Of a DNA stretch of 64,000 bases, positions 15,329 to 60,303 are shown piece by piece. The position numbers and the translations under genes were made by a program. The notes below the pieces were generated by a model, which had not been told where the DNA came from, ran no database searches, and was given only the letters and a program-made list of their open reading frames with translations. How positions within the stretch are numbered: the first letter of the stretch is position 1; each line of letters opens with the position of its first letter. The stretch covers positions 26,286,058-26,350,057 of the forward strand of contig OZ005689.1 in NCBI GenBank assembly GCA_963930775.1, given 5' to 3'. The stretch is from Cliona cf. orientalis (Eukaryota > Porifera > Demospongiae > Clionaida > Clionaidae).

Positions 15329-18300
15329 TCATAAGTGGTCAAGAAGTTGTAGGGTTTGTTCATATAGATCAATGCCATACTCTTCTGACAGTGAGAGTGG
15401 ATCAATGGTTTGTTGTAACAGAGTGAAATTAGCATCACTTAAAACATAGGAACATTCTGGTATTTGTACCACAGAATTACCTTCTTCAGTGGGCACTGGT
15501 CCATCCTCATCAATACCATAATATGTAGAATCGATGTGGTCAAAAAAATCTAAAGCAACTAACTGAGTGTCGAAGTATTAGCATCCCAGCTGTGAATAGC
15601 TGATGAGGTGATTTGTTACTAGCACTTCGGATTGGGTGATGGTTCCAACCATGCATAAAATGAGTAAGGGCTTTATTCATGCGTGGAATGAAAATGAAAT
15701 GGAGTGCATAAATGTGCTTCTCATTCAGCTGGTCTAGCAAATCACATTGCTCCATAAAGTAAAAAAGTTTATAATAAAGACTTGTAACACATTTGTGCAC
15801 ATCCTTCCAAAGACACTCTATGCGTTGATTGTGGACTGAGGAGCCAACAATCATACTACCACGATCAGATCCTCTGTGCTCAATCATATGCTGGGCCACA
15901 AGAACATTCTCACCACCTTGATCTGATCGCACTCTTGATGGTAAGTGATGTTCTCTGATCGCTCCCAGGAAACTATCATAGATAGTAGTCGATCGTATAT
16001 TTGAAGTGCATTTGAGATACACAATTAATCTGCTGTACCCATCTATGCCTCCGTGAGTTGCTAATCGCCATCTGATCAGCTTATGTGAATCTGAATATAA
16101 AAGAGAATGGCTTAGGGCTATAATAATATAATATTATGCATGTTCTAGCTATGCCCATGCCCATGCATACCTGTCTTATAGTCTAAGACTCATTGATGGC
16201 CCATAATAATTATTATGCTGTAGGTGATAATAATTATTGTCATTAATTATTAGGAATCTCTAGGGGAGCGTAATGCTCTAAAGCTTAAGCCTAATTCCAA
16301 AGTAGCACGCAAAGCTAGCACTGACATTCATTAATTTTTGGTCATTCAAAATATCAGTATACTAGGGGTATACGTAAAATATTTATGCTGGCATAATTTT
16401 AGGTGTGTATATATACCGGGTATTATAAGCATTTGAGAATTATGCTATAGCACTATAGGCATCAACTGGCATAACTGATAATTTTAAGGCACACAATCGC
16501 AACTACTACTAGTAGCTGTTAATCGACCTTTGTCACGACGTCTGGACTACATATTATGGACTGGCAAAGGGTTAATTAATCAGCTGGTACCCACTTTTGA
16601 ATCCGAATACATGCATGTAAAATTGAAATGGCTGCATTCGATGATAGTGTAACTGAGTCTCCTCATGTAACATTATAGTCTGTTCAACTTGGGCATAATC
16701 GGTAATGTATTGGGGATTATAGGCCGGTACGCTTCTTGAGCATTATTAGGTATATTATTACGAGCATTGAGAATGGGCAAAAAATTAGCATGATTTACCT
16801 ACCACTAATCATCGCACACCGACGGTAATGACTGGTATAATATTTTATAGCTGTTCTATAGAGTAGCTAGATATTACAGTAATAGGGTGCATGAGCATTC
16901 AGTCTACATGCATACTAGAGCTGTCTTAGAATATTATGCTACTTCCTATGATGCATGACTCTTAGAAATTAATGCATGGTATACGTACTCATATTGACAG
17001 TAATGATACACACACAAAACTTAAAGGTCTTACCAATATGCCATAGTGAATTCGGTCCTGCTACGGAATACACACGTCTTGTAATCCCACCAGGCCACCT
17101 TAGAGCTGCACTTAGGGGATCACTGTTCCGCAAGGCATCACGTATTCTTGCTCTTACAACTCTGTATCCTCTTGCCCTCAGAAGACCAGCTGCCATAGAC
17201 GCTCCAACATCAGGATTGTCCTGCCGAAACTCCCTAATCATTTCTGATAGGTCTTCATCTGACAGGTCAGAGTTTGGGTAATCCACCAGTCCAAATTCCA
17301 TTCTCATGTACAAATTATATGAAAAAAAAACCATAGCATGTTTGCATTTGACAACCAGGTTGCATGTGACTCAATCTGGTGTGTATATATTAGCCAAGTT
17401 CTATTTATTATGGCAGTTGTCCCTACATGAGTATTATACTTCCATGGCAATTAACACTTTACTGTAACATTGAAGATGGAAATGAGTCAATCTAATATTA
17501 TGACAATCATGCCTAGCTACATACTAATAGCAATTACCTTCCTGATAATAACATTATAGCACCACATTTCTAACTAGCTCAGCCTGCAAAAATCTGACTT
17601 CTATACACAACAATAATATACATACACTATTATACCTTACCAGAGTTTTATACACCTGAATTTTTCGTTGGGGAGGGGGGGGGTACATTGTGTTGAAGCA
17701 CCACTATCTGGGGGAGCCTGGGGCATTCCCCCCTATTTTAGATCTATTTTGACCACAGTGTTGTCAGGTAAATCACCTGATTAGGGAAAAGCCTGCCAGT
17801 GATATCCACTGGTTCTCCTCTACGTTAATACTCAAACGTTGGATATATGTCCTACCATGCAGACCGTGAAGCTTCAGCTAGTTTATGGGTTAATCGAGTA
17901 TAGGCCAAGAGGTCATGACGTCATACGTATTGCCAACGCCGAATTGTATTCAAGAAAGTGTAGTGACACAAATAAAGTGTCTTGTACAGCATAGCAGCAC
18001 AGCCACACAGGCAGTACAGGCCTTCATGATATGATATGTAAGACAGGTAGCTGCTACTTTCTAGTTACTATACATACTATAAGCTACAAACATACACAAA
18101 AGCTTATAAGCTTACTTACCTCCATAATGGCCGCCGTCTTCGAGTCGCTCCCAGGTAAGCGCTTGGCTCTGTTGAAAAGCTCGTCATATTTGTGTAGGTA
18201 TAGACCTAGTCTAGCTATATACTTAGCGACAGAGCTGTAACTCCTGCCCTGTGGTAGAAAAATGTACCGCTCTCGTACCCGGATCGATCGCCATTATCGT

Positions 18301-19495
18301 CAATCTTCATAAAAACATTTTTAGTAGCGAGTGGTGGGTTGGGCCAACCATGACCTCACGCCACAGGTATGCAAGGGAGGCCCCCTAGTAGTCATAGACA
18401 GGAAGCCAAAGCTATGGTTTCTCGTTCTTTGGAATGTAGGCGGTGCCATAGCATTAATATAGCTATACTGGCTCGATTTCGCGCCTATGGCGGTTCGCGT
18501 GCATGTTACGAAATCGCGCCTATGGCGTATAATCGGTTAACAATAAGCAAAACTGCCACTTTGGACACTTTCACCAGACTATTTACATTGCATGTATTGG
18601 TGGTTGGGGGGGGGGAGGGGGGGAACAGGAGCTTGATATGAAAACCCACCTACAGCCCCCAAAATGAAACCTTGTATAATAATGTATTGATTAACATTGT
18701 GGAGCGGGGAGGAGAATCCCCTCTAAATGAAATGCTGTTTATAGTGACATCCATGATCAAGTTATGCAGTTCCGATACTGTAACATTTCTGGGTCGGAAT
18801 GCAACATAATATTAATATAGTCGATGACTCAATTAAGCCTTAGGAAAATTACATTTATTTCTACATAACCAGGTTAAGCCCTAATATATACACAAGCTTT
18901 AGCTAGCTACAAGTAAGAGGTACACTACAATCCCTTTTCCCCTGATAAATTAATCACTATAGCTAATTATCCTCTTTATAGCAATTAATTTTATAAACAT
19001 GGAGATTAACTTATAATTTTTATATTAATACCTGTAGAGAGTCATTCGGGATATACCCAATAGTGCAGATATTTCGCTCCATGTGAATGAAAGTGTCAAA
19101 AGGTACTCTATTTGCTCCTTATCAATGTCAAATCTTGGCCTGCCTCGTCTTCCAGTGTGAGCAACAGGAACTTGATATGAAAGCCCACCGAAAGATGTAG
19201 AATCCAATAATGTTCTATTATTCCTTCCATCGATCTAACAATGACCTCAAATGACCAATCAGCTCTTCAATTTCTGTTTCGTATCCAGTGATAATTGCCT
19301 CTTCAGTGTAATTCAGAGAGGATGAAGGATTGTCCAAGCTGGCTACAACAGTTGTGCACGATTGAACTGCTAACTCTCAATCAGGTGGTCGGCAAGAACT
19401 GAATTAGCAATACCAAAACGCCTCTCGTATGTCTCAAGCAAGCTGCTCAGTTCTTGAAAGAATGAAATCCAGCTCTCCACTAACATTGCGATCAT
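15329..19495 (-). pseudogene. rve-type integrase transposon gene, three exons
   Basis: On the minus strand the ATG at 19493-19495 opens exon 1 (19495-19032): LSSLLETYERRFGIANSVLA, then an HTH part GRRGRPRFDIDKEQIEYLLT and WSEISALLGISRMTLYR. Exon 2 is 17302-17034 (NPDVGASMAAGLLRARGYRV, ending GPNSLWHI). Exon 3 starts at 16090 (HKLIRWRLATHGGIDGYSRL) with the integrase core: first Asp in GGIDGYS, second in RVRSDQGGEN, Glu in HNQRIECLWKD. The splice phases join perfectly at both introns. Frameshifts in exon 1 (about 19360 and 19220) and near 15565 separate the conserved C-terminus (YGIDEDGPVP ... EEYGIDLYEQ; stop 15329-15331). It is an integrase-core transposon protein common in aquatic invertebrates; superfamily name uncertain. 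Confidence 0.8.
17894..18536 (-). mobile_element. piggyBac-type MITE within intron 2 of the integrase gene
   Basis: TTAA flanks both ends (17890-17893 and 18537-18540). Its ends are TCGAGTATAGGCC and the inverse of CCGATTATACGCC. It is an inverted copy of the element at 59697-60303; they share a CGAGAGCGGTACxTTTCTACC... block, a first-exon-like segment and a GTAAGTAAG splice donor (near 18119 on the minus strand). It has the TTAA target of piggyBac elements and end sequence like the piggyBac at 46231. Confidence 0.85.
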
Positions 19496-19574
19496 GAGCA
19501 GTATTTAATAATGGTCGCTCCACCCCGGCCCCTCCTACTAATCTTCTGCAAATCCATTTTTCCTAACGTCATCT

Positions 19575-19670
19575 TTTAAGGTAATGTCACGTTCTTGACG
19601 CACATGCGTTGTAACGTCACGTTGTGTACCGTGGACGTTACATTTTAAGTATAACGTCACGTTTATGCGG
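19575..19670 (-). promoter_or_regulatory. Cluster of CRE-like ACGTCA motifs upstream of the integrase gene
   Basis: About six words of the type TAACGTCAC, TGTCACGTT, TTGACGCAC and GGACGTTAC fall within 90 bases, 80-175 bases upstream of the integrase ATG at 19495. The words resemble ATF/CREB sites. They could be a promoter of the gene or degenerate transposon sub-repeats. Confidence 0.35.
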
Positions 19671-19741
19671 TTTTGATTTTTGATACATTTGGCTTGCCAT
19701 ACGATCGACCTAAGCGTTGAAGTAGCCTTGTTTTCTGCCAC

Positions 19742-20104
19742 AGTACGTGCAGTACAGACATATCGCTAAGCATACAGTTGGACTAGGTCTATGTCTACCT
19801 TACTGCGTAGACAAAGTGACATGAAGGTTCTACTAACCACGGATGGACTTGAGACGGCGACGGTTTGGAGGTAAGTAAGCTTTTAAGCTTTTATGTTCAG
19901 AAATAGCGTACTATATGTACATACGAAGCTAAAGTAACTAACTACGAAGGTTGTACAATGACTCCTTCGTGTGAATAAAGCGTCCATAGCTATGACAACT
20001 GTTCTAGGACGCTGTACAAAGACTTAATAGCTAGTACACTATTTTACATAAATTAATTTAGCAGTTACGGGTAGTGACATCATCTACATTCCGCGTATAA
20101 TCGG
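19742..20104 (+). mobile_element. piggyBac-type MITE, second family (left end not found)
   Basis: The right end is GCGTATAATCGG followed by TTAA at 20105-20108, the same terminal sequence as the other piggyBac-type MITEs. A GTAAGT splice donor follows GGCGACGGTTTGGAG at 19870. From there to the right end it matches, inverted, 57920-58140. No left TTAA end is visible; the left coordinate is arbitrary. Confidence 0.65.
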
Positions 20105-20108
20105 TTAA

Positions 20109-21030
20109 ATGTGTACACTTTGCCTTTGCCGTACATGTGAAAAGCTCATTCTCACATGTATGAAACACATCCCTACCATGTCGCCAGTCAACGACACTTA
20201 AGATTATGATTAGTAGCATTGAAACAAAGGTACTGATCAAGTTTGGTGCTTCATGGATGTTGTATGTGAAATTGAGGGCCAAAAACGTGTTGAATGCATG
20301 TGTACACTTTGCCGTACATGCTAGCTAGCTCATTCTCACATGTATGAAACATCCCCACCATGTCGCCAGTCAACGAAACTCAAGATTATGACTATCAGCA
20401 TCAAAACAAAGGTACTGATCAAATTTGGTGCTTCATGGATGTTGTGTGTGGAATTGAGGGCCAAAAACATGTTGAATGTGTACTTTGCCGTACATGTGAA
20501 TTAAATGCTAGCGCATTCTCACATGTATGAAACACCTCCACCATGTCGCCAGTTAACGGAACTCAAGATTATGATTCTTAGCATCAAAACAAAGGTACTG
20601 GTCATGTTTGTGCTTCATGGATGTTGTGATGGAATTGAGGGCCAAAAACGTGTTGAATGTGTACACTTTGCTGTTCATGTGAAACGCTCATTCTCACGTA
20701 CATGTATGAAACACACCCCCACCATGTAGCCAGTCAAGGAAACTCAAAATTATGACTATTAGCATCAAAACAAAGGTACTGATCAAGTTTGGTGCTTCAT
20801 GGATGTGAATGGAATTGAGGGCCAAACACGTGTTGAATGTGTACACTTTGCCGTACATGTACATGTGAAAAGCTCATTCTCACATGTATGAAACACATCC
20901 CAACCACGTCACCAGTCAACGAAATTCTAGATTATGACTATTAGCATCAAAACAAAGGTACTGGTCAAGTTTGGTGCTTCATGGATGTTGTGTGTGGAAT
21001 TGAGGTCCATCTTCATGTGTATAAACGGAC
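20109..21030. repeat. Tandem repeat, about five copies of a ~182-bp unit
   Basis: The unit contains CTCATTCTCACATGTATGAA, CCATGTCGCCAGTCAACG and AAACAAAGGTACTGATCAAG followed by TTGGTGCTTCATGGATGTTG. The CGCCAGTCAACG word and variants occur near 20180, 20359, 20543, 20727 and 20908, giving a period of about 182; a partial copy ends the array. It starts immediately after the TTAA of the preceding MITE. It is open for short stretches but I see no coding potential. Confidence 0.9.
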
Positions 21031-21974
21031 TTCAACCATGCCGCCAATGTGACATGTATACATTGCTATTATTACATGTATAATAAGTTGAGTGGTTTCC
21101 TACTCGAATAAAGCAAATATCGCTGCATACAACCTCCATAGCCTGATGAACTCTTTCCATGACATTGTATATGAGTTTATACATTACTATAATTATTATC
21201 AATACATATTCCACTATGATAAAAATGTACAATTGAAGGAGTGTAGGCTAAGGATATAAACCTAAACAATGACTAGCTAATCTATATCACTGGAGGGACT
21301 GCATAATGACTACAAGTGGCCTATATTTAGGTGGCCTGCTGAAGAGGTAGCACAAATGAGGATGAGCCAGACGATGCAGATGATCCACTAATTCCTGGTA
21401 GCAATGATGAGTTCTCGACCTGGAGTTAGACAGTTATGATGATTATGATGGACCTGTACATGTGTGGCCAACAACCATCATTCAGCCTTTGTACAACTTT
21501 GACCAAGGCAATGACTCAGACATCAATAATTGCACCCCACCAACACCACCATCCTGTGCTGAGTGTGCACAATATTCACTCACATACTACTGGACATACG
21601 TACATGCACACGCACACACACACAAAATTAATATACACACATGCACACACAATTCTCCGAGCCATGTTTGAGGAAGGGATACAGGCTTATGTCAGTTGCG
21701 TGGTCTATGATATCCCTTTTATATGATCTATTACGTACTCTTACGTTAGTCATGCTTCTAGCCTCCTCTAACTGCTCACCATCCTAATCAGATCTCACTG
21801 TTTCTGTAAGCTACCTACATATATATAGATATGAAAACGCCACAATAATTATTTCCTTGCCCTCCAAAGTTTTCCTACTAGCTGGAAACAAAGTACGTAG
21901 CCATTGAACTAATCCGAAGTTGTAAGGGCCACTTCGTATAGTGAGCCATGTACCACAATAATTTGTTTACTTAC
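21031..21974. other. Non-coding; CA-rich microsatellite
   Basis: A degenerate CA/CACACA tract lies at about 21600-21655. Otherwise nothing is recognised. Confidence 0.4.
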
Positions 21975-22113
21975 AGATCGCCGAAAGTCTGCTGTGTCTC
22001 CAAATTTGAGGGATCGACCTAGCTTCTTCTCGCTTTCACTACTGCATGGATAGCTCTTCGCCTTGGCAACAACATAGCCCTTGAGCACTGAGCCATGGCT
22101 CACAAGCCACATC
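21975..22113 (-). CDS. Possible exon of an unknown gene
   Basis: On the minus strand an open stretch of 46 codons (WLVSHGSVLKGYVVAKAKSY, then EKKLGRSLKFGDTADFRRS) is bounded by a CACAG acceptor and a strong GTAAGT donor. Codon use looks protein-like, but I do not know the family and find no partner exon nearby. Confidence 0.3.
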
Positions 22114-23227
22114 CTGTGAAGTGTACATGTTATCATGCATGCATGGTGCTGTGTGCATGCTTATAAATTAGGTGCACAGTTAAATTTTCATCACCTAACT
22201 TCGAAACTAGTCTTCTTGTTTGAGCTATCCATTGCCTTCAGTTTCAGTGATCTTTGCTATCAACGATGACTCCGCTGCCGTTGTATATCTCATGAATGGC
22301 AAGATTCACCTTTGTAAGAATGGGCAGCTATTGCTGCAGGATAAGGGTCCAGATGCTGGGATACGTAACGTCTGCTGAAGTTGCAATGAATCGTGAAAAA
22401 AGAGCTGCTAAGAGTAAGCTTGGAGTAATTTTACAACCTAATAATATTATGGAGTAGAATCTTTCCTTTTTTCTTTCTCTATGAAATTTTAATGCATTTG
22501 CATAGTGGTTGGACAGATAGCTGAAAAGCTAGTATTGAAGTCCTCCCACAGGACATACATACACAAAACTAATATGGGGTGACAGAAAGGGCTAAACTTA
22601 ACAATGGGATCGTAAACGGGATTTGAAAACATTGGGGGAGGGACTGTTAACAACAAATGAGGACAAAGAGTTCCAGATAGGGATGACATCAACAATGGAA
22701 AAAGCTATACTGTCTGTGTGCATCAACATATCAATACCTAGTTGATTTGAGGACTTGAGTGAATTCTTACAGAGTTGATCCTATGAAAGTTGATGTCCTG
22801 ATAGTTGATATACAAAATTGCTCTTGTAGGAATTGATCACGGGGGAGTTGATCACATACAAAATTGATCTCGTGTGTACACACCCAATTCGACTACTGGT
22901 GCCATGCCATGTCAGAGTGGGCACCAACTGATGACTGCTAATCAGACTGAAACACCTTCCCAATCGACGGCTACAGCAAATTCATTCACTGATAAGTCAC
23001 CTAGATTAACAAGGTGTGATTTTATAGCTAGCAACATGTTTTGTAACGCTTGCATATTATGACACGTGTAGCTAGTGATTCTGAACGCCCGATTCGGCGG
23101 CGATAGCAATTGACTCGTCTGTTGGACTGTGATCATTAAATTTTGAGTATGCGCAAAATTATGATCAACAAACAGACAGGAAACCCTCGCCCCCACTTAA
23201 TGCCTCCTTTATGTATTAAATGTGTAG
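22114..23227. other. Non-coding
   Basis: GTTGATC-rich words recur irregularly at 22770-22870. A possible open stretch near 22330-22420 could not be joined to anything. No element recognised. Confidence 0.3.
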
Positions 23228-23875
23228 AAAGGGCCCATTGCCCGAGAGCTCTAAGACACCCAGCATAAGACCATCAAAGGTGCTGAAAGAGAATGGAAGC
23301 TCCCGGTCTGGTGCAACAGCAGAGGATAACAATGTGAATCTTGATGAAGCCATTTCTAAGTGTTTCATTGGTAACAATGCACAATAAATATGCATGCATG
23401 ATAATAATTATTTAAACGTGTATATTATTATGAACTCTTAGGATACTACACCCTTCCAGTTAGCTGTCTTATTGAGCCATGGCCTGCTCGCTTGCTACGT
23501 CCAGTTGATGAGCTGTTTGTTGAGAGCCTGAAGTTGGCAATGAAAGGCAATCACAAATGATGCTGCTCCTATCATTGGATTGGTAGTCCTAGGTCAAGGT
23601 AAGGGGCTTTATTACACTATATACAACGAAAAATATTTTCAGAAAGTGTTTGTTTCATACCTCTCAAGTGACCCTCATCTCGCTGGTCCGACCAGCATTT
23701 ACACGTCAAATTACCCGACCAGCAAGACAAGTCTCAAAACCAGCATTTGTGGAGATACCATACCTAGTAGCTATTTTAATATACATGGGCTTTTACACAT
23801 AATTTAGAGCAGATGAAGCAGTTATCCTAATCATCAGAACACAATTTTCCCATTTTAAGTGGCTATTTAGATATA

Positions 23876-24295
23876 TGTGAGCGAATTTGAGAAAAGGGGT
23901 AACTTCGCGCATTTCCCGAATTTTGGTTTTAAAACGCTTATAACTTTGGAACCATAGCAGCTATGAACTTCAAACCTGGCATGAATATTCTTCCATCATC
24001 CTACTACACTCGCTGCAAATCGCAAGCCCCGCCCACTTCCGGCTTGGGCGGGGCGAGCGCGCGCGTCGATCGCGTTCGAAAAACGCCGTTTTATGGCCCT
24101 CTTTGGCGGCTCACCGCTCGGGACAGGAGGCTTGCTCTAGCTTCTAACGTTGGATCTGTGAAGTAGAAGGTCCAAATTGCTTACAAACCAAGTCTGAAGC
24201 CTAGGGCTCTTACTGGCTTGAAATGGTGGTAGGCTGAAAAGTGATAAAAAATCGCGTTTTGCGCGAAGTTACCCCTTTTCTCAAATTCGCTCACA
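23876..24295. mobile_element. 420-bp MITE with near-perfect terminal inverted repeats, TA duplication
   Basis: About 35 terminal bases (TGTGAGCGAATTTGAGAAAA...) are repeated inverted at the other end, flanked by TA on both sides. A related 423-bp copy lies inverted at 30419-30841; both contain a CCCCGCCCA...TGGGCGGGGC palindrome and a TAGAAGG...TTGGATCTGTGAAG block. Confidence 0.88.
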
Positions 24296-29498: not shown

Positions 29499-29584
29499 TT
29501 TTATCAATCAATTTTTAGTTTCTAATCTCACTCCCAGTCCACTAGGCATGCGGGCAGGTAGTATAGTAGTAGTAATTCAAATAT

Positions 29585-30402: not shown

Positions 30403-30418
30403 TGGTAATAAATCTATA

Positions 30419-32421: not shown

Positions 32422-34860
32422 TAGCGTAAGATGCCATTTATCGGCCATACTTTTGTCCCCAAAGAATAACTCACCTCATGGAAGGACTTCAACGACTGTT
32501 TTGCCACTGATCAATCGAGACAAGTGTCATCTACAACTTGACAAAGGTCCCGTTCGAATAGCTCATATCGTTTGCGATCGCGAACTCAGCAGAATATTCC
32601 TCGCGAATATTGATTATCGACCACGGGTACCATCATCTGTCGGCCATCCATAGATTTCCGTACATCAATTATCGACCATAACGCACATTTTTGGACAGCG
32701 CAATATAAATAGACAATTATGGTACATAAAGGATCATAATGTGTCTTTTTGAAACCACTAGAAATACTACACTGACCCGACGACAAACACACAGGGCAGA
32801 GTAATCCCTTGCCGTTGGCGTCCTGTATCACATTCTCTACACATTCTTTATGGATCCACCGGCTGCATGGGAACACTCAATCCACTCACGGTCAGTGCCA
32901 GCATCATCCTACATACAATCCAAAGCAGGCACAACACCTGTCAAAATCTATGGTGTCATCAGTTGTTTTTGGTGCTTTTGACCTTGGTTCCTTGTCTAAT
33001 GCCCTTTCTTCAGTTGAAGATGCTGTAGATCTTGCTCTTTTATGAGTTCCTGGTGCCTTTGAGTCTTCTTCTCTCCACAGTTTTTTCTCGGGCGTTTTTC
33101 TCCTTTTTTATCCTGCTTCTTTGCTTTCCTTGCTGCTTTTTGTGCTCGTGCTTCTGCTTTTCCTTGCATTTCCTGTTCCCGTTTTTCTTTTTTTGTCTCC
33201 CTTTCCAATGTACGTTATTCTTTTTCTTTTCTTTTGTTATTTCATCTCTTTCTCCTTTAATAAATCAAGGCACTCCTTGCTAGTGAGAACTCTGGCACCA
33301 CTCTGCCTCTTTGTGTTCAGCCGAGATGGGGGCGTGTCTGGAAGAGAAGATAAGAAACGTGAAATAAAGCTTTTAGTACATTCAGATGAGCTTGTAGAAG
33401 AGGTTGAAGAACTTGTTTTAGATGCAGGGGTACCAGCAGGAGTGCTTTTGAAACCTGCTTCAGAATTTGAGCCATCCGTACAAGAGGTAGAGGGAGCTGC
33501 CTTAGAAGTAGAGCCACCTGTCAGAGGTAGAGGGAGCTACCTCAGAAGTGGAGCCACCAGTCCGAGAGGTAAAGAGAGCCACTGTAGGTAGAACCGGAGC
33601 CACCTGTCCGAGAGGTAGAGGGAGCTGCCTTAGAAGTAGAGCCACCTGTTGGAGAGGTAGAGGGAGCTGCCTCAGAAGTAGAGCCACCAGTCTGAGAGGT
33701 AAAGAGAGCCACTGTAGAGAACCAGAGCCACCTGTCGGAGAGGTAGAGGGAGCTACCTTAGAGGTAGAGCTACCTGTTGGAGAGATAGAGGGAGCTGCCT
33801 TAGAAGCAGAGTTACCAGGTTGGGAGGTAGAGGGAGCCACTTTAGAACTGGAGCCATGTGTCGGAGAGGTAGAGGGAGCCGCTTTAGAACCCGAGCCACC
33901 TGTCGGAGAGGTAGAAGAAGCTGCTTTTTCATGAGACTGCTCCATGTTGGAAGACTGAGTCGAGACTTGAGGTATGCTCATTGTTGGGGCGGAAATTAGA
34001 GTGTACCGATCCACTGGTATGGCTTCTGGGTGAAATTTCTCGAGCCACGAAAGATAACTGGAATCAAATAAATCACATCCCTCCTCAAGCCTTCGCTGGT
34101 AAAGCGTTTCTTGTTCAGTAGAGGACACTTCATTAGAGGAATCAGACTGGTTCAAATTTTCATCATAAAAAGAATCAGACTGATAGTCAAGACCATTGTC
34201 CATTAGATGATATTCAGAAGGATCCTCACCATCCAAAGGATCATCATTAGCCAAAAGAACACTACCTCCACTAGCATCACCATTGTTGTCACTATGAGAA
34301 GAATCATCTTCTGGATTTCCACCATTGTTTGTCGAATTATCAAGTACCGACACTCTGGTTGGATCAAAAGGGTAAATATTTTGAAACCGTTAACAATATT
34401 CTCAGCTGATGTTGCCTTGAGCCATGCTTGCTTAAACAAGCCAGTGAACTGAGCTTTGTGACGCTTCCATTGGGATTCTTCTGATGAAATTCGTGACAGA
34501 CATGCCTCCAGTGCACCTTGAGTGGCCCAAATAAAGAGCAGTCTAAAGGTTGACACTCGTGGGTGGTGTGCGGTGGTAGGCAGAAGACCACCACATTGTG
34601 CTCTTTGGCGAACTGGATTGTCAGGCTTAAAGTGTGAGCTATGCCCATCAATTAGTAAGGAAACGGGCACATTACTGATTGCATGTTGTAGAAAATGTTC
34701 AGTGAGCCAAAAATGGAAGAGATCCTGATCAATCCGACCGTTTTCTGAGACTGCGTATCTACTTTCAGCTACTTCGTTTCTCATCCACAATGCATTCAGT
34801 TGCTTTGCTGCAAACACGGAGGGATGGCCTGTCCATGTATACTGCTTGAATCCGTATAAT
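32422..34860 (-). pseudogene. Tigger/pogo transposase, 3' half with right terminus, inverted
   Basis: On the minus strand from ~34845: SVFAAKQLNALWMRNEVAES, VSLLIDGHSSHFKPD (second catalytic Asp), then after a shift VVVFCLPPHTTHECQPLDCS and FKQAWLKATSAENI. The tail has an acidic part, EEGCDLFDSSYLSWLEKFHP, a tract of 15-residue repeats (SKAAPSTSPTGGS; 33490-33930), a Lys/Arg-rich part, and a C-terminal zinc-finger-like CSRWIHKECVE ... CPVCL (about 32870-32780). It ends at TA + GCGTAAGATGCCATTTATCG (32422), the matching terminus in inverted orientation. It therefore completes the 5' half at 30873-32085. Multiple frameshifts are present. Confidence 0.8.
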
Positions 34861-46150: not shown

Positions 46151-46234
46151 AATACAGGGAAAACATTTTGAGGACATGACACCCCCCCCCCCGAATCATC
46201 AGGTGATATAATTATCCCCCTATGGACCAGTTAA

Positions 46235-46403
46235 CCGATTATGGGCGATTGACGCCAATTGGTGTCGCGCATGCGCAAACCCGTAAGGGCGGTAGACGCC
46301 AATTGGCGTCAGCTGCATACGCTATCCTTTATCGAGCAATCGTGCCAACGAGAAACCCTACTGCGACTTGTTACTCCTTCGTGACTTCCAGGAAGCAACC
46401 GAG
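46235..46403 (+). promoter_or_regulatory. piggyBac 5' terminal region, promoter and untranslated first exon
   Basis: It contains two GACGCCAATTGG(C/T)GTC palindromes and ends in GCAACCGAG|GTAAGTG, a strong splice donor at 46404. The likely acceptor is at 46613-46614, just before the transposase ATG at 46621. The related MITEs keep the same layout of terminus, palindrome and GAG|GTAAGT. Confidence 0.55.
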
Positions 46404-46614
46404 GTAAGTGTTTACGGGATAGAAAGGGGGAGTTACTATACAAATATAGGTCAAAAATTGCACCCGAACATAAGCGCTACACAAGCGCTGATAGTGCATG
46501 AACCTCAGTATACGTATACACAATAATAATAGTATTACTTATATAAACGCTACAATGCTACCAGCTATGAATAAGACAATAACTTTACTACTATAAACAC
46601 TAAAATACTACCAG

Positions 46615-47712
46615 CTAAACATGACTAAGAGAGCTAGGATGAGCACCCAGGATGTGATTGATGCCATGTACTCGGATGATGATGATGATTTTGATGTTGA
46701 TGACCCTGACGAGCCTTTCATGGATGATAGTGATGATGATTTTTCGAACCTGGAGGGAGAGTTAGATGAGAATGATAATGACGAGGATATGGACACAGAC
46801 ATGAGTACACCACACTCACCTCCAGCCAGCCCTCCAGCAATGACACCTCCACCAGGCTGCTCTCCAGTAGGCACTCCCTCAACCACACCTCCGCCGGGCA
46901 CCCTACCAGCTATGTGGACCACCAGCCTGCAACCAGTCACCATCACACCATTCCAGTCAGCTCTTGGTCCAACTGTCCCTGTACCTGACTCCCCACTGGA
47001 AGTTTTTGAGCTCCTTTTACTGCCCCTTTGATGCAAATGATTGTGGATGAAAGCAATAGGTAAATCTTATACACAAGAACAATAAGGGATTATTTCAACC
47101 ATACACTACGATAATCTAGGTATGCCAAGCAAGTGATGGGGGATGTCAAGTACGTCTTACGGAACAAAATAACAGTGGAGGAGCTAAAAGCTTTCCTTGG
47201 CTTTTGTGTTCTGATGGGAATCAACAGCTTGCCGGCACTGAAGGATTATTGGAAGCATCCCACTATGCACCCATTGTTGACCGAATAACAAGGGATCGGT
47301 TTTTGGAGATATCTCGCTATCTCCATTTCGTGGATAACGACACCCTTCCACAACGAGGTTCACCATCATACGATAGGCTTGGGAAAGTACGACCACTTGT
47401 TGATCATTTCTCACAGAAATTCAAGTCTGTGTACTCACCACACAAGGAAGTTGCCATCGACGAGGCAATGATCAAGTTCACCGGTCGTTCCTCTCTCAAG
47501 CAATATATGCCAATGAAGCCCATCAAACGAGGCATAAAGGTCTGTGTGCTAGGAGACAGCAGCAATGGGTACTTCTCCAACTTCCAGATATACACTGGAA
47601 AGGTGGGTGCCACAGCGGAGACAGGCCTGGGAGCACGTGTCGTAAAAGATCTGACACATGACCTAAAGGGGAAGTACCACCATGTTTTTTTTATACCTTT
47701 TTCTCAAGCGTG
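46615..47712 (+). pseudogene. piggyBac (DDE_Tnp_1_7) transposase, truncated
   Basis: The ATG at 46621 reads MTKRARMSTQDVIDAMYSDD with an acidic N-terminus and a Pro/Thr-rich linker. A one-base loss near 47013 precedes PLMQMIVDESNR. A 60-bp intron (47060-47119) joins in phase to YAKQVMGD, then ITVEELKAFLGFCVLMGINS. After a shift at ~47270 come RITRDRFLEISRYLHFVDND, KEVAIDEAMIKFTGRSSLKQ (first catalytic Asp) and IKVCVLGDSSNGYFSNFQIY (second Asp). It stops after KYHHVFF, just before the third catalytic Asp. Inactive. Confidence 0.88.
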
Positions 47713-47727
47713 AGCTTACTTGGTTTG

Positions 47728-50837: not shown

Positions 50838-50879
50838 AATTTAACACAAGTAAACTTCAGATTCTATATTAATGGATCT

Positions 50880-51711: not shown

Positions 51712-52270
51712 AAGGCCAAGCAAAGTTAATTAATAGTTTCTCAGGCCCGCCCGCATCAAATTTTGAGAAAGCAAGACTTTTTTATTTATTTTTCACGTGA
51801 GCAGTCACGTGCTAATTAATTTAATTAACAGACAAAAATTGGTAAAGAGTTCATGAAACTAACTGTTTTCTGGCATCTCGAGACAGTTTAGTTGACATCT
51901 CACAACTGAAGTCTCCGTGAAAGTGGTATTTAGCCAGCATCTAGCTAGCTATTTTCTTCAAAGATGATGACGTCATCTGGTGCAGGCTAAATCTTGTCAT
52001 CTTACAAGGTTAGTACGACTGATAAAACTTTTCTCTACTAAAGAGAAAGCTAAACTTGATTGTTAGGCTAGATATTCTCTCTGGTTGGACTTTAATACTT
52101 GTATTTCAGCACTAGCTTGCGTATCAACCACGCGCAAGGACTAGCGAAAATGGGCGTGGTCACTATCGCCACGCCCATTTTTCATTAAAAAATAAAATAA
52201 AAAGCCGCCTCCCGCATGGGTTTTGAAATTTGAAAGCCTGAGAAACTAGTAATTAAGTTTGTTTGGCCTA
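51712..52270. mobile_element. MITE of about 0.56 kb with ~34-bp terminal inverted repeats
   Basis: AGGCCAAGCAAAGTTAATTA at the left is matched inverted by TAATTAAGTTTGTTTGGCCT at the right, and the match continues inward as TAGTTTCTCAGGC. Contains a GGGCGTGGT...GCCACGCCC hairpin near 52150-52180. Confidence 0.65.
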
Positions 52271-52639
52271 AGTTGTTTAAGTTGTTACTACTGACTTCAT
52301 AAATCATGATGTATAGGGATGTCTCTTGTATACTAGTTTTCCATCACTACCACCGAGTGTGATGCATAATAGGTTTAGACTGAGCTGTACAATACAATTA
52401 ATTATCAGTGAATGAATGATATTGCACCAACTTATTCTAGTAGAGTAATAGCCATAATCATGTTAATTTTCATGAAAGAGCTGTATACAATTATAATAAT
52501 ATTATCTGATATAATAGGATGCAATCAACATGATTGGTTACAAAAAATATTATTATAGTGTGTACATACATAGTTGTGTGTTTGATGACTATTATCATAC
52601 AATAAAAAAAATTATTGTGCACACAAAAATTATTACAGA

Positions 52640-53150
52640 TCTGCTCTCTCCGTACTTCTTGAGTGAAATTCTCAATTATAGCTGGATATCTGGCATTAAG
52701 TTAGTAGATCATCTTCACTGTACACCAATCACGCAATCACATTTTATAGTCGTGCCAACAGTTTCAGCTCAAGATGAAAGAACTGGTGTGATCCAATGTG
52801 AATGTGGAGATTTCTATATTGGGGATCAGGAAGAACTCTGCACATCAGACTAAAAGAGTGTAAGGAAGCTTGCTGAACTGTTGATAATGTACTCTGGCTG
52901 AGAACTATCAAACAATGCTCCAGTCAAAAGATGGATGACCACCAGCCCCACCCACCAACAATCCTCCCTCAAGATCATTACTTGGTCCAGAGCAGACCCC
53001 TAACTTGATGACAGCAACACCAGTACCGATGGATCCATTGAGAGGATTAAAAGACTATTTAAGGATTAGCTTGTGTATGTATGTTTGCATTGTTGCCCTG
53101 ATGATGGCTACAGTATGGTAGCCGAAACTGTTGGCACTATCATGAAAAAT
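52640..53150 (+). pseudogene. Penelope-like element 3' remnant with GIY-YIG endonuclease
   Basis: TGVIQCECGDFYIGDQEEL (about 52785-52840) resembles the GIY-YIG start of Penelope-like C-terminal endonucleases (Y-I-G kept, followed by residues like ET-R in relatives). Beyond the stop, 52861-53070 still resembles the domain's tail in places (APVKRWMTTS; SIERIKRLFKD). The sequence then runs into the CCTGATGATGGC...GTAGCCGAAAC motif, which commonly follows such domains. Reverse transcriptase is absent. Confidence 0.5.
53098..53128 (+). ncRNA. Hammerhead-ribozyme-like core (incomplete)
   Basis: CTGATGA (53098-53104), a 6-bp stem GGCTAC/GTAGCC with a 6-base loop (53106-53123) and GAAAC (53124-53128) reproduce the conserved catalytic core and stem II. 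I could not find stems I and III with a cleavage site around it, so it is either degenerate or only the fossil of one. Penelope-like elements are known to carry hammerhead motifs. Confidence 0.35.
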
Positions 53151-53191
53151 GTAATTGTAATGATTGGTGTACAATGAAGAAGATGATCTAC

Positions 53192-53395
53192 GACTGTATA
53201 GTGGAAACTTTCAAGGAAGAAAACTTTCGTGGATCGGTAAGGAAGCGAGCATTAAATTTTCATGGAATGTTAAACTGATTGCATACATGGCTATGGCATG
53301 CCTTAAAATTTCATGGAGAAAACTTTCGCAGGTGGCTATAAAATTGCCATATTTGCGAAGGTTTTCTCCCTCGAAAGCTTCCCACTATAATATGG
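53192..53395. mobile_element. ~200-bp MITE related to the 28285 element ends
   Basis: GACTGTATAGTGGAAACTTT at the left and, inverted, CATATTATAGTGGGAAGCTT at the right, continuing to a shared GAAAAC(T/C)TTCG. Same terminal word TATAGTGG as 28285-29498. Confidence 0.6.
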
Positions 53396-53639
53396 TATGT
53401 CTTAGTATTGTATCGCTGAATCCGTGTTGAAGGGAGATTATGCACTGTAGATTTAGCCTCCTTTGACCTTTATTGTGAAGCTGAGCATTATGCTCAATAT
53501 GTGAGCTAAGTAATTTCGAATGTTTAATATCCTTTTGTTTTCTTATAAGATCAACTTATAGATTTAAAATGTTTGGTTTTATGACTGTTTAGTGTGTTTT
53601 CTCCAGTAATTTGAAGACTGCTGAGTTAACAGCTCTAAC

Positions 53640-55375
53640 CTAACAACCATATACACCAATTTGAGGCCAGCCTCACATTGCCAAGCTACGTACACACAAA
53701 AGACTTCATTTATAATGTGAGGCTGCGTTGCCAGAGGCTCTTTTGACGACTGTACGCACAAATTTGAGGCCAGCCTCACATTGCCTAGCTAGTACTCACA
53801 AGATACTTGGTTTACAATGTGAGGCTGGGTAGCTAGAGGCTCTTTTGACGACTGTACGCACCAGTTTGAGCCCAGCCTCACATTGCCTAGCTAGTACACA
53901 CAAGATACTTGGTTTACAATGTGAGGCTGGGTAGCCAGAGCCTCTTTTGACGACTGTATGCACCAATATGAACCCAGCCTCACCTTGCCTAGCTAGTACA
54001 CACAAGATACTTGGTTTACAATGTGAGGCTGGGTAGCCAGAGCCTCTTTTGACGACTGTATGCACCAATTTGAACCCAGCCTCACCTTGCCTAGCTAGTA
54101 AACACAATCTTTGTTTATAATGTGAGGCTGGGTAGCTAGAGGCTCTATAGACAAGTGTACACCACTGATTTGAGGCCAGCCTCACATTGCCTAGCTAGTA
54201 CTCACAAGACTCTTGGTTTAGAATGTGAGGCTGCGTTGCCAGAGGCTCTTTTGACGACTGTATGCACCAATTTGAATCCAGCCTCACATTGCCTAGCTAG
54301 TACACACAAGATACTTGGTTTACAATGTGAGGCTGCGTTGCCAGAGGCTCTTTTGAGACCAGCCTCACATTGCCTAGCTAGTACTCACAAGATACTTGGT
54401 TTAGAATGTGAGGCTGCATTTCCAGAGGCTCTTTTGACGACTGTATGCACCAATTTGAATCCAGCCTCACATTGCCTAGCTAGTACACACAAGATACTTG
54501 GTTTACAATGTGAGGCTGCATTGCCAGAGGCTCTTTTGAGACCAGCCTCACATTACCTAGCTAGTACTCACAAGATACTTGGTTTACAATGTGAGGTTGG
54601 GTAGCCAGAGCCTCTTTTGACGACTGTATGCACCAATTTGAACCCAGCCTCACATTGCCTAGCTAGTAAACACAATCTTTGTTTATAATGTGAGGCTGGG
54701 TAGCTAGAGGCTTTGTAGACAAGTGTACACACTGATTTGAGGCCAGCCTCACATTGCCTAGCTAGTACTGATAAGATACTTGGTATAGAATGTGAGGCTG
54801 CATTGCCAGAGGCTCTTTTGACGACTGTATGCACCAATTTGAGCCCAGCCTCACATTGCCTAGATAGTACACACAAACTACTTGGTTTAGAATGTGAGGC
54901 TGCATTGCCAGAGGCTCTTTTGACGACTGTAGGCACCAATTTGAGGCCAGCCTCACATTGCCTAGCTAGTACACACAAGATACTTGGGTTACAATGTGAG
55001 GCTGGGTAGCGAGAGGCTCTTTTGACGAGTGTAGGCACCAATTTGAGCCCAGCCTCACATTGCCTAGCTAGTACACACAAGATACTTGGTTTACAATGTG
55101 AGGCTGGGTAGCCAGAGGCTCTTTTGACGACTGTACGCACCAATTTGAGCCCAGCCTCACATTGCCTAGTTAGTACACACAAGATACTTGGTTTAGAATG
55201 TGAGGCTGCATTGCCAGAGGCTCTTTTGACGACTCTAGGCACCAATTTGAGCCCAGCCTCACATTGCCTAGCTAGTATACAAAATCTTAGTTTATAATGT
55301 GAGGTTGGGTAGCCAGAGGCTCTGTAGACAAGTGTACACACTGATTTGAGACCAGCCTCACATTGCCTGGCTATA
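53640..55375. repeat. Tandem satellite, about 18 hairpin units
   Basis: Each unit holds CAGCCTCACATTGCCTAGCT, an AGTACACACAAGATACTTGG centre and TTTACAATGTGAGGCTG, so its core is a stem of ~13-15 bp (CAGCCTCACATTG/CAATGTGAGGCTG) around a ~30-base loop. Units are joined by GGTAGCCAGAGGCTCTTTTGACGAC-type linkers. Spacing is mostly 97-106 bp, with two shorter units (~79 bp) lacking part of the linker. Many spacings are near multiples of three, which opens long frames on both strands (up to 257 codons); I regard these as non-coding. Confidence 0.92.
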
Positions 55376-56499
55376 TTTTCATTGACTTTACCTTTTTTTG
55401 TATCTGCTCAACCGCAGCATCAGCACGAGAATGCGGCGTATGGACGTGGATGACAACAGACATTATAACAATATGCAATACACTTGTACATTTAATTATT
55501 GCGAGCCTAGCACTGGAATGGGACATGAACACCACAGGAATGTGCGGCTCAACACCGCTGGAATGTGCGGCTGCATAATGTGCGGCTAACTTCTTTTGAG
55601 TCCAGTACCCTCGTTATTTACATCCACACAAACCCCAAGCTGAAATGTGCCAGCTTGTATACATACCTGTCCCACCGTATACAATCTGATGCAAGACTCG
55701 TCGATTCTCCCTCCTCCTCATGTTTGTCGCTGGCTCTAAGCCAGTCACTCCCTTCTCTCCTCCCTCCCCCCAATTTCTACAAGTACATCATACATGTACA
55801 TGCACATGCACCCATGCACACACACACTCTTCAACATGCACACAAACTCTCTGTGAGAGTATCACATCCAGTCAGTTGGTAGACTCACAGCGCAGTACAG
55901 AGCCTTAAAAAATCACATTTTCTACAACAAAGGTAAAGCTTTTCACAACCGTAGTTCACATCAAACAGCGAACAAAGCTAGCTAGTATTAAAATTCACAG
56001 CTAGCTACGAACGGCTATCTCATGTGACTCCTTCATACTTGGCCAAAAGTATTTCATGTTGAATCACACCCAGGGGTGTTTATTACATGCAGCCTTCAAT
56101 TATAGATAACTTACAAATTGTAGAGTCCATCGCTTCTCTTGATATCTTCTCCTTAAGACCAGGACTGCTGTACTGGCGCTCTCTCTGTGGCCATCTTTCC
56201 CGGAAAATTCATTATGGTGGCTAACCGCGTGGTGTAATACAGAGCGTATACAGAAACATTGAATGTTGAGCTATGTACGTACAAAACGCTCTGTTTCTCG
56301 AAAAATTATGAACTGAGGCACGGGTGACCCATGTACAATTTTTTGGCCACAACTCGGCTTAGGAAGCTTTTTAGAGCCTGGCTCTTTGCCCATTGAATTC
56401 TACGGTAAATTTTACGTCGATCTATACCCAAAAATCGCGACTGGTCGTTTTTTCCATAGCGGGTTACATATATGGATGACATCCACTCCTCTTTAACAT
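55376..56499. other. Non-coding; AATGTGCGGC words and CA microsatellite
   Basis: AATGTGCGGCT occurs three times at 55540-55585. A CATGCACA-type tract lies at 55790-55850. No gene recognised. Confidence 0.35.
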
Positions 56500-56720
56500 G
56501 TCACTTCACACCTGGATATATTATGAGGGTGAAGTTCACCTGTTTGAAGGAATGAGCGCTGCTTCACTGCTCAGGAGTGATTTATCAGAGTGAACTCCAC
56601 TCGTCTTTAGAGTGCACTCACTCTATTGATACGTCACTCCATTGGAGTGACAGACTGGTAGAGTAAAATGCACCCATTTTTGGAGTGATATCACCCAAAT
56701 TTTTGCAGTGAGCTGTGTAG
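56500..56720. repeat. Cluster of GGAGTGA/TCACTCC words
   Basis: Short direct and inverted copies of (G)GAGTGA and TCACTC(C) recur about ten times, including the perfect palindrome GTCACTCCATTGGAGTGAC near 56632. Probably a degenerate mobile or minisatellite sequence. Confidence 0.5.
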
Positions 56721-57919
56721 AAGTATACAGTGACAGTAGGGAAGAAAGCTTGTATGTGACTAACCTCATTGGTTTACATATACTAGGCTCATTATTTTAG
56801 TCAGTCTAGTATTATGGAGGATATTCACATTTGCAAAACAAAATGTGATCTTAAGCAGGTAATCCCTTAGACATAATGGCCACAGCTTTCATGAGTGTAA
56901 GTAAGAAGTGCATCCATCACGATTACAAGAGGTGTAACATGTCAGAAGTAAATCTGAAAGAAGGTATAAATGTAGCATGGCTAGCACTATAATGATCAAA
57001 ATGAATATTATTATGTGCAGATCATTTGTATGTGGAGCTGTGTGTCTGATTCCACTATGGATAGAGCAAGCAACTAGCTATTGCTATAGTTAATGTTCAT
57101 CGTATAGTGACTGATCCATTGCCTTATTATCGGGATGAAACTAGTGTGTGCATGCATGACATTGTGTATATTATTAAATGAACACTTGAACGTATCCCTA
57201 GTAGCTGTACAGTGTAATGATGCATGTGGTAAAAGGTCGTCAACACAATATGTGCATTGATGCCAGTGCCAGAAATCATAGAGACGGAGTTTAAGACTGA
57301 CCCTCAACCTTGATAGCGACAAGTTTCGACGCTTCAATCACAAACACGAACTCAACAGTGCAGTATACCTTCCGAACTTCAGGTAAGTCACGTGGGCCAG
57401 CCCCTTCACAATGGTGCGTGCTATATAGTGCAAGGCTAGCTTTATGTATCCATGGCATTACGTAAGCCAAGAAAAACACGTGAAGTGAATCAGCGTTACT
57501 TTTCAAACTCCAGAAAGGCGCCAGTGCGGCCCTAGATTTTCTCATGGTAATTTCGTCATAAAGGTTACACCATAATTACCTCACAACCACAGAAAATTAA
57601 ATTGTTACTGGGGATATAATTATGTTACCAGCATAATAATATTCTTACTATGATATAATAGTTTGTTGTGATATTGTAGCAGTAACGACGTTATTGAAGA
57701 TGCACATTGTTTATGAGGAACTTATAGATTTGAATCCAATTTGTGTGTGTAACATCCCGGTGTAAATCTACATTAAATCTTGCTCTGGTTATTCCATTGC
57801 AAGCAGCTCATCAAAAAACGGTGATAATTGTTGTGTGCAATAATAATCGTAAATCGAAAGAGTGATTGGTATACGATAATCATCAGCTTCTATTATAACA
57901 GTAATAATATTATGCACAC
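56721..57919. other. Non-coding
   Basis: No convincing exon. ATGGAGGATATTCACATTTG...AAGCAG|GTAATC near 56814 has an exon-like look but no partner. Confidence 0.3.
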
Positions 57920-58140
57920 TTAACCTATTATACGCTGAATGTGGATATTATTACCCGTAACCGCTAAATTAATTTATGTTAAAATAGTGTACTAGCTATT
58001 AGCCTTTGTACAGCGTCCTAGAACGGTTGTCATAGCTATGGACGCTTTATTCACACAAAGGAGTCATTGTACAGCCTTCAGTTAGTTACTTTAGCTTCGT
58101 ATGTACCTATAGTACGCTATTTCTGAACACAAGCTTAAGG
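57920..58140 (-). mobile_element. piggyBac-type MITE end, copy of the 19.9-20.1 kb family
   Basis: TTAA at 57920 then CCTATTATACGC, and about 215 bases matching 20104-19890 inverted (for example GCTAAATTAATTTATGT, GGACGCTTTATTCACAC). The match stops near 58140; no other end found. Confidence 0.7.
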
Positions 58141-58761
58141 TACCTACTAATTTCGTGGGTGGATATATCCCCAAATTGCCCCAGAAGCACTCATAAGACG
58201 CTTACCCTTTGCTGAGCATTTTTAGTGTTGTAGGAGACATGAATGACTCCATTTGGTATCCGCTGTTGGTCATCAATTTTAAGGTCAAAGGTCGTGCTTT
58301 CAGCCCCACCCCTTTCAAATGTGCATGCATCAGTCCCTCCCGTGGCACGCGCATATCGTCCATTGTGCCACGTGAACTTTGCGCACTGCCGAGATAATTG
58401 GTAAATTTTGTGTCTGTGTCTGTCTGTCGTGTGTGACACGATTCGCGCAGCTACGCGTCCCATTATCGTAGTGTAAGTAATCTCATAGTTGTGAGATGAT
58501 CTCTATAACATGGCGTACTGATACTTTTCTCGTATTTCCTGACTATCGAACTGTATGCATGTCGCCTAATTTACTGAGCTTGGAACGCTAGGTTTGTATT
58601 GTTATGACTGGGGAGGAGGAAGGTTCTGGTATTATGCCTATATATACGAGACTAGTACCTGCTGCAGCTAGGAGTGGAGCCCAATCAGATTGTTACACGT
58701 CATCACCAATTTTTATAGGGCTTGCTAGGCTACTAGACTACATCTCCTCACGAGTGAGGTT
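58141..58761. other. Non-coding
   Basis: No element or exon recognised. Confidence 0.3.
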
Positions 58762-59160
58762 TTGCACACAGGCATAGCAGCTAAGCACTGGTACAACTCC
58801 AGTATGGGCACAATACCAGATCCTTCCTCCTCCCTTGTGAAGGGCTGGCCCACCAGACTATGTCAGCTGCAGACTATGACACGTTACGAACAGAACGGAA
58901 GTTTTCCCAAAGTACCTGATTGCATATTCTCGTACCCATACGCAGATTGGAAAAAGAGTGTGCTCAGGCGCATTAAGGACTGGGACCCGTACGATAATGA
59001 TATTCATAGTGGGGTCATCGCCCACCGCATAGCTATCTCCCAGATCGACGAATTTACACCGAAAATCCAGTACATACGTGATAATCCTTTGACTTTATCA
59101 ATGATTCATCCATGTATAGCCAGTAGGAGACCTTCTGAATGGCGATTCTGGAGCAGCTAA
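58762..59160 (+). CDS. Unrecognised 133-codon open frame
   Basis: Opens at a TTG, so the true start is unclear; internal ATGs exist (MGTIPDPSSSLVKGWPTRL). Composition is rich in W/P/R/D (ADWKKSVLRRIKDWDPYDND) and protein-like, ending RPSEWRFWSS. No domain recognised and no partner exon seen. Chance ORF or small orphan gene. Confidence 0.25.
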   Translation: MHTGIAAKHWYNSSMGTIPDPSSSLVKGWPTRLCQLQTMTRYEQNGSFPKVPDCIFSYPYADWKKSVLRRIKDWDPYDNDIHSGVIAHRIAISQIDEFTPKIQYIRDNPLTLSMIHPCIASRRPSEWRFWSS

Positions 59161-59692
59161 CTGACAGGTCATGTGACCTAAGCCACACCCGCTAGTAGTG
59201 AAGTATAGGAAAAGGTAGACTGTGCTAGGCGGGGTGTTGGAACAAGATGGTTCGACAAGTTCTGTCGCTCATAGTACTTATGTAATACCTAAAGATCTGT
59301 CGTTCGCAATTTTTACTCCAGTTTCTCAAAAAAAGGCTTTAAATAGAAAGTGGGAGTGGCACTTTTGTTTATTTTCACCTCTCTCTACCAAATGAATGGT
59401 CATTTTAAAAATTGCAAACGACAAAAATGTTGTACATCAAAGTAAGAAACTACTACTATGGCTATCTAGCTGATCCATGGCCGAGAAGTTCACCGCCTAG
59501 CTGATCCATGTTGACTGAAGTGCTCCCACGAAAATGGAGGTGTGGCCGTTGCGGTTTGATGGGCGGGGCTAAAAGAGGTGTCAGCCACATCAAAGGTTGA
59601 AGAACCTGGAATAACTGTCACATTACTTTTCATTTTGATGTAACTGCTTACAAGACGTGGTAAAAATAGTGAAATTTTGCTGGTCCCAGTCC
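59161..59692. other. Non-coding
   Basis: TAGCTGATCCATG occurs twice near 59465-59512. Nothing else recognised. Confidence 0.3.
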
Positions 59693-59696
59693 TTAA

Positions 59697-60303
59697 CCGA
59701 TTATACGCCATTGACGCCAATTGGCGTCAGTACAGCTATATTAGCGCTATGGCACCGCCTGCATTCCAAAGAACGAGAAGCCATAGCTTTGGCTTTCTGT
59801 CTACGACTACTAGGGGGCCTCCCTTGCATACGTGTGGCGTGAGGTCACGGTTGGCCCAACCCACCGCTCACTACTAAAAATGTTTTGTGAAGATCGACGA
59901 TAATGGCGATCGATCCGGGTACGAGAGCGGTACGTTTTCTACCACAGGGCAGGAGTTACAGCTCTGTCGCTAAGTATATAGCTAGACTAGGTCTATACCT
60001 ACACAAATATGACGAGCTTTTCAACAGAGCTAAGCGCTTACCTGGGAGCGACTCGAAGACGGTGGCCATTATGGAGGTAAGTAGCTTTTGTGTATGTTTG
60101 TAGCTTATAGTATGTATAGTAGCGCCCTAGCGGCGTAGTAGAAAGTAGCAGCTACCTGTCTTACATATCATGAAGGCCTGTACTGCCTGTGTGGCTGTGC
60201 TGCTATGCTGTACAAGACACTTTATTTGTGTCACTATACTTTCTTGAATACAATTCGGCGTTGGCAATACGTATGACGTCATGACCTCTTGGCCTATAAT
60301 CGG
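59697..60303 (+). mobile_element. piggyBac-type MITE (607 bp) carrying a first exon and splice donor
   Basis: TTAA on both sides (59693-59696, 60304-60307). Ends CCGATTATACGCC and, inverted, CCGATTATAGGCC. It shares ~28 terminal bases with the piggyBac at 46235, including the GACGCCAATTGGCGTC palindrome. GACGGTGGCCATTATGGAG|GTAAGTAG (donor at 60077) ends a short open stretch from ATG 59903 (MAIDPGTRAVRFLPQGRSYS). Inverted copy at 17894-18536. Confidence 0.88.

Follow-up and report, generated by a model that had tools for sequence, protein, structure and literature searches.

What does a short, non-autonomous transposon carry when its interior looks like the start of a gene? The question was raised by a 64,000-nt stretch of chromosome 1 of the sponge Cliona cf. 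orientalis (C1:26286058-26350057, hereafter the window), in which a sequence-only reading had recognized miniature inverted-repeat transposable elements (MITEs) of the piggyBac type, each with an exon-like segment ending in GAG|GTAAGT, and had proposed that they act as mobile first exons. Comparison with the genome (216.8 Mb in 149 contigs were searched; the assembly, odCliOrie1.1, is given as 217.17 Mb in 307 scaffolds in the accessible part of its description, PMC12639293, which also names the RNA run ERR13669944, and its short scaffolds were probably absent from our search) leads us to lean, with modest confidence, towards another explanation. The elements fall into two families, A and B, which would be diverged branches of one old non-autonomous piggyBac-type lineage of ~660 bp, moved in trans by several related autonomous families, with the core travelling as a passenger and the left ends varying. 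It is these varying ends, rather than the first-exon reading, that are the better lead.

The two-ended elements of the window are both members of family A, of ~660 bp. One (copy L026) lies on the minus strand at 17890..18540 (element 17894-18536) and the other (copy L055) on the plus strand at 59693..60307 (element 59697-60303), and sequence and family alignment bear out the earlier statement that each is flanked by TTAA. The third element, placed before at 19742-20104, is indeed one-ended and has a donor; it begins at 19701 (19701..20108 on the plus strand, element to 20104, with TTAA at its end) and is a 5'-truncated copy (B nt 257-665) of the second family, B, of 665 bp, whose palindromes read GCGCCTTAAGGCGC. 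A further fragment of B that had gone unremarked (B nt 440-665 at 91.6%; 57920..58138, minus strand) retains only the right end and is without the donor. The autonomous element with which the MITEs had been compared lies at 46231..47713 on the plus strand, and consists of a TTAA, a terminal repeat, two palindromes, a predicted 5' untranslated region (5'UTR) exon, and transposase pieces in different frames, its right end not being seen. The terminal sequence said to be common to all was found, as CCGATTAT, at five termini (46235, 59697, 18529(-), 20097(-) and 60296(-); a sixth match, 16695(-), belongs to none of these elements), but the 17894 end has mutated to TCGAGTAT. The palindrome supposedly kept by both two-ended copies is present only in the 59697 copy (GACGCCAATTGGCGTC); the 17894 copy has a different motif pair, beginning CATAGGCGCGA. 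The donor-like sites themselves are real: a motif search found GAGGTAAGT in the three MITEs at 18114(-) (18114..18122), 19868(+) (19868..19876) and 60074(+) (60074..60082, with nine bases just downstream missing relative to other copies), and in the autonomous element at 46401(+), with two further matches, 61447+ and 63513-, outside these elements.

That A and B are piggyBac-type MITEs follows from their TTAA flanks, their small and fairly uniform size, the lack of a transposase in their consensuses (660 and 665 nt, read by eye) and the terminal repeats that they have in common with elements of the DDE_Tnp_1_7 (PF13843) transposase, since PF13843 matches lie next to TTAACCGATTAT ends, for instance C1:12247792-12248568 at L086 and C1:23993337-23994137 at L098. 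The usual piggyBac terminal motif CC[C/T]T is absent from the MITEs and their autonomous partners, the ends of which read CCGATTAT; in the accessible text of PMC2872659 that motif is a general mark of the superfamily and not a strict requirement. At least 40 members can be counted in either family, 40 candidates having been scored out of 171 for A and out of 85 for B. Both TTAA-repeat ends were present within 2 mismatches in 34 of the 40 fetched A copies, and 11 of 20 fetched B copies passed an exact test at both ends; a clear left end was missing in five of the 40 A copies and a clear right end in two, one copy being in both lists, and all were kept in the alignment. End to end, the A and B consensuses agree at 75-76% of ungapped sites and, the alignment being rich in gaps, at 59-60% of all columns, and a local search aligned 174 columns (A nt 278-446, donor included) with 69% identity, besides shorter matches at the left end (16 nt) and the right end (35 nt). 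As a separate observation, A and B copies lie near each other and in the same relative orientation at two places, window 17894-20104 (1164 bases apart, the B copy truncated) and C1:24310238-24311750 (matches 455 bases apart, a longer B copy, and ~200 bases between the elements); the spacer of the window pair has no match in the other locus.

Within family A, the copies differ chiefly at their left ends, for which three types were distinguished: A1 (21 copies), A2 (14, including L044, which has one change in its motif and was assigned by hand) and A3 (5), in which there is a single palindrome. The A1 and A2 consensuses share the outermost repeat and then have 16 differences in nt 17-76 and only 8 in the other 600 nt (Fisher p 1e-12), i.e., the interior is more conserved between them than the subterminal 60 nt. 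Over the left 76 nt (a comparison from which L090 and L012-L015 were left out), A1 is 93% identical to the autonomous element L086 (eight other autonomous ends, 69-78%), B is 85% identical to L087 (others 65-76%), and A2 is nearest to L097 (82%), L098 (82%) and L099 (79%; others 63-75%). Restricted to nt 1-50, the match of A1 to L086 was 96% (others 76-84%) and that of B to L087 84% (others 65-79%). L086, L087 and L088 represent distinct families, for identity among the C-terminal pieces of their transposases is 64-69%. L097-L099 were retrieved with a pattern that joined the second A2 palindrome to the autonomous left-end motif (3 matches, 0 control matches), nt 1-50 being untouched by it; two of them adjoin transposase matches, so transposase-bearing elements with A2-like palindromes exist.

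The cores do not follow the ends strictly. The core haplotype CTCT is joined to A2 ends in four copies and to A1 ends in three, and its gapped form, CTC-, to an A3 end in one; older cores (GCCA, GC-A) have A2 ends only (10 copies), CTTT cores have A1 or A3 ends only (21), and a further A1 copy has a gap. The CTCT group includes the two complete copies of the window, whose ends differ, L026 being A2 and L055 A3.

From these observations we infer a history in which the cores of A and B diverged from one old ~660-bp lineage, with several related autonomous piggyBac families mobilizing both in trans. The left ~75 nt (the terminal repeat and two palindromes, the latter putative transposase-binding sites) vary by lineage while the core persists, and the palindromes would have been replaced by exchange with autonomous copies: A1 ends resemble L086 and B ends L087, and A2 ends perhaps L097-L099. 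In A3 one palindrome would then have been lost by deletion between repeats. The core, with its exon-like stretch and donor, would be carried along, its decay after insertion being about neutral.

Several points weigh against this explanation. The two palindromes change together between A1 and A2 and the spacer between them is nearly unchanged, so that what one sees is two palindromes altered jointly and not the clean exchange of an entire end. The likeness of L097-L099 to A2 arose partly by selection, since the pattern that found them contained the second A2 palindrome; L097 and L098 are identical over their first 400 nt; and over nt 1-50, L086 (82%) is no more distant from A2 than L097 (82%) and L099 (80%) are. 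An initial formulation, that three end types matched three autonomous families, was weakened by this tie and this selection. In addition, the haplotype sites were chosen for differing between end groups, the core tree has low internal support, and the 40 A copies were the top scorers with a single query, not a random sample. The joint change, the partly selected A2-L097 link and the weak core tree also speak for the main rival to exchange, namely that the ends changed through ordinary mutation and homogenization between an element's two palindromes, with no contribution from autonomous elements. We consider this rival unlikely, albeit deserving of serious weight: the A1-A2 differences are concentrated in so small a part of the element (16 of 24 within 60 of 660 nt), and A1 ends are 93% like those of L086, whose interior is unrelated.

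If the ends have counterparts among autonomous elements, does the core have a parent? The idea that the MITEs keep the promoter, first exon and donor of the window piggyBac did not survive comparison. That element matches A only over A nt 1-73 (76.8%, with palindrome cross-hits) and B only in a 12-nt terminal repeat and an 11-nt match at chance level, and hence what looks like an exon in the MITEs is not the exon of the window piggyBac. Nor was there clear interior homology to 13 other autonomous left ends (L012-L015, L086-L091 and L097-L099; four copies of the window piggyBac, six loci found by similarity to its 5' end, and three found by pattern), and none stood out when ten PF13843 loci without a detectable TTAAC(C/T)GATTA end were compared with the A and B consensuses. 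In 39 interior comparisons against shuffled sequence, z ranged from -0.7 to 3.3, with the highest values for B and L014 (3.3), B and the window piggyBac, L011 (2.4; its interior scored 0.4 with A1 and -0.1 with A2), A2 and L091 (2.3), and B and L013 (2.2); sister copies did not repeat them (B-L012 0.2, B-L015 -0.1, A2-L089 0.7). Values of 2.2-3.3 in three of five copies of the window piggyBac family, absent from the other two, may reflect a faint relation of B to that family. L090, which is of the L089 type, resembles A1 over nt 3-73 (77.5%) and has a CCCAA|GTAAGT site. What the MITEs and the window piggyBac have in common in GAG|GTAAGT is the 9-base donor consensus.

The autonomous relatives do seem to begin with such an exon. 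In the window piggyBac, the predicted 5'UTR intron occupies 46404..46614 on the plus strand, with its donor after 46403 and an AG 6 nt before the ATG at 46621. In nine autonomous elements, donors picked by eye lie 163-255 nt from the TTAA (GTAAGT in seven, GTAAGC in one, GTGAGC in one), and the eight with a recognized start codon have an AG 0-6 nt before that codon and 110-372 nt after the donor. The nine comprise four window-family copies, one close pair and others, so that they represent about five lineages (L015 and L090 were not among them); L097-L099 have, by eye, GTAACT at the matching place. A spliced 5'UTR is, by prediction, a likely trait of this autonomous clade, and the exon-like core may descend from the 5'UTR exon of an autonomous family since lost.

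Could the MITEs nonetheless start transcripts and splice them from GTAAGT into downstream host exons? The predicted 5'UTR introns of the autonomous relatives favour this, as do the exon-like segment, present in both A and B, and a strong donor-like site, which half of the 40 A copies in the alignment (20) and all 11 full-length B copies possess. The donor was expected, on that account, to be better conserved than its neighbouring bases, a test that the account failed. The 40 A copies have 20 GAGGTAAGT, 14 GAGGTTAGT and 6 other forms, and when they were grouped by subfamily and +3 base, the nine donor sites deviated by 1.39% versus 2.33% at non-CpG interior sites, with 34% of interior 9-mers as low as the donor or lower. 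Change at the family A donor is thus slightly below average and not exceptional. A genome scan with the donor block (<=3 mismatches) found 195 places, of which 63 were exact and 100 were listed; among the 36 one-mismatch places listed, +3 had changed in 14 (always to T), the eight remaining donor sites accounted for 10 changes and the 14 flanking sites for 12. The B donor was unchanged in the 11 full-length copies, and so were 42% of B 9-mers. From the decay in copies being close to that of the interior, the one-mismatch scan and the B 9-mers, we conclude that the donor is not visibly protected after insertion.

Nor does comparison between the families single out the donor. The A-B alignment has 17 identical bases in a row there, and we had entertained special conservation of the donor between A and B on that basis. 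The most similar A2-B interior stretch (29/34) does cover the donor, but with a permutation p of 0.09 (0.45 with 10-column blocks), and the most similar A1-B stretch lies elsewhere, at A nt 311-313 (29 versus 28 at the donor; p 0.07, 0.26 with 10-column blocks). The peak not being significant, and for A1 not at the donor, the idea was dropped.

A spliced transcript, if copied back into the genome, would leave a sequence that stops at GAG and lacks the GT, and no such retrocopy was found among the seven odd sites read from 75 A and 44 B exon-end matches (other odd rows, including a G-to-A donor change, were not read): four of the seven proved to be MITEs whose donor is damaged, and the remaining three do not belong to MITEs. 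Positional evidence for use comes from the 17894 copy, which, in line with the earlier statement, lies in a predicted intron of another gene, here one with an integrase domain (rva_4; 15543..19234, minus strand). The helix-turn-helix part of this gene ends near 19028 and the next open stretch starts at 17370; the predicted intron between the open stretches 19234-19028 and 17370-16972 contains the A2 copy, on the same minus strand and therefore in sense orientation. In L095, a relative without the intron, these two parts are continuous in a single frame. The integrase family has 137 genome matches, and being itself repeated, the gene is a poor example of a host gene. Together with the unexceptional donor, the non-significant A-B peak and the lack of a spliced retrocopy among the sites read, this makes mobile first exons improbable in our estimation. 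The integrase gene also stands tail to tail with a HECT-domain fragment (14896-15258, plus strand), and at another integrase locus, L096, the opposite strand is open over a long stretch that looks HECT-like by eye; the HECT and integrase pair is possibly a repeated two-gene mobile element.

Alternatively, the core could have originated by transduplication, the capture of part of a host gene, in which case its first exon would be genuine and might lie on the opposite strand. No autonomous element with the core was found among the loci compared, and on the reverse strand of A one sees by eye an ATG whose context is good, with CAG|GTAAGC after it (ATGGCCGCCGTC...CCAG|GTAAGC); moreover, A nt 361-410 deviates by 0.7-1.0% versus 2.9% overall, a figure that precedes subfamily correction. 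Yet the reverse-strand ATG and donor are, again by eye, absent from the B consensus, the reverse donor is equalled or surpassed in conservation by 27% of interior 9-mers, and among the three odd exon-end matches that were not MITEs, none was a clear source gene. We doubt this origin strongly.

In a second genome scan, with +3 left open, there were 57 matches, 34 of them otherwise exact, with A at +3 in 22 and T in 12. The T-bearing A copies are the youngest, differing from their consensus by 0.67% and 0.94%, compared with 1.9% for the A-bearing A1 copies and 2.7% for A2. This is suggestive, though only that, of a latest burst from a master with a weakened donor (GTAAGT to GTTAGT), the groups being defined by that very site. 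A stronger version, in which the young burst was founded by a change at +3 and at no other site, was abandoned for the same reason and because two other interior sites differ by majority. One could go further and picture a core that swaps its transposase dependence by exchanging recognition palindromes with different autonomous families and so outlives them, its youngest burst, from the weakened-donor master, hinting at selection for less splicing interference; this extension is tentative, and we hold it as possible while expecting that it may well be wrong.

Matches to DUF6570, Helitron_like_N and Pif1_2B_dom follow in a row at window 2645-8495 (plus strand), as a Helitron-like element, and at 34206-34859 (minus strand) there is a DDE_1 match, which we take to be a pogo/Tigger-type transposase fragment. 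On a larger scale, C1:18-37.5 Mb, which includes the window at 26.3 Mb, makes up 9% of the genome, yet 44 of the 63 places with an exact match to the donor block, and 20 of the 25 best matches for piggyBac, fall within it. Among the Ras-family exon matches listed (of 157), C1 has only two, which lie at 14.4-14.6 Mb. This right half of C1 is very rich in the present transposons and perhaps poor in genes; it might be heterochromatic or non-recombining, or a block resembling a sex or B chromosome. Near the end of C1 there are four PF13843 matches that score identically and lie in both orientations (C1:37186297, 37416252, 37437356 and 37485567), which suggests a recent duplication or an assembly repeat there.

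How do these sponge elements compare with what has been described elsewhere? A literature search covering mainly open-access papers gave, among the hits seen, no description of piggyBac MITEs as mobile first exons or of MITEs in Cliona. The accessible text of a review of plant MITEs (PMC12595863) describes how those near genes can alter promoters and splicing, and does not describe a piggyBac MITE as a mobile first exon. In primates, PGBD3 and the MER85 MITEs offer a TTAA piggyBac, short two-end derivatives and splicing between transposon and host gene (PMC2268245, in the part accessible); PGBD3 traps exons by a 3' splice site before its transposase, whereas the sponge elements offer a 5' donor, and MER85 consists of the retained ends of PGBD3, whereas the sponge core is not the retained end of any autonomous element found here. 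The donor result itself carries a caution, i.e., that a consensus splice site in a repeat is easily mistaken for a kept first exon. The nearest known case is that of the CMITE families of Acropora corals, TTAA-flanked piggyBac-type MITEs of ~100 bp whose interiors are also more alike between families than are their ends; one of these families matches an autonomous piggyBac at the ends, without obvious similarity over most of its interior, and the accessible text (PMC2872659) leaves the origin of that interior unexplained, and likewise why piggyBac MITEs should share interiors but not ends. As far as that text goes, the CMITEs differ in their terminal repeats, whereas the sponge elements, at ~660 bp, share an outer repeat and differ in their subterminal palindromes, and for two of the sponge end types the best match is clear, a different autonomous family in each case. 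With near-identical cores joined to different palindrome sets, and two end types with clear autonomous matches, the exchange of ends is directly testable in this sponge.

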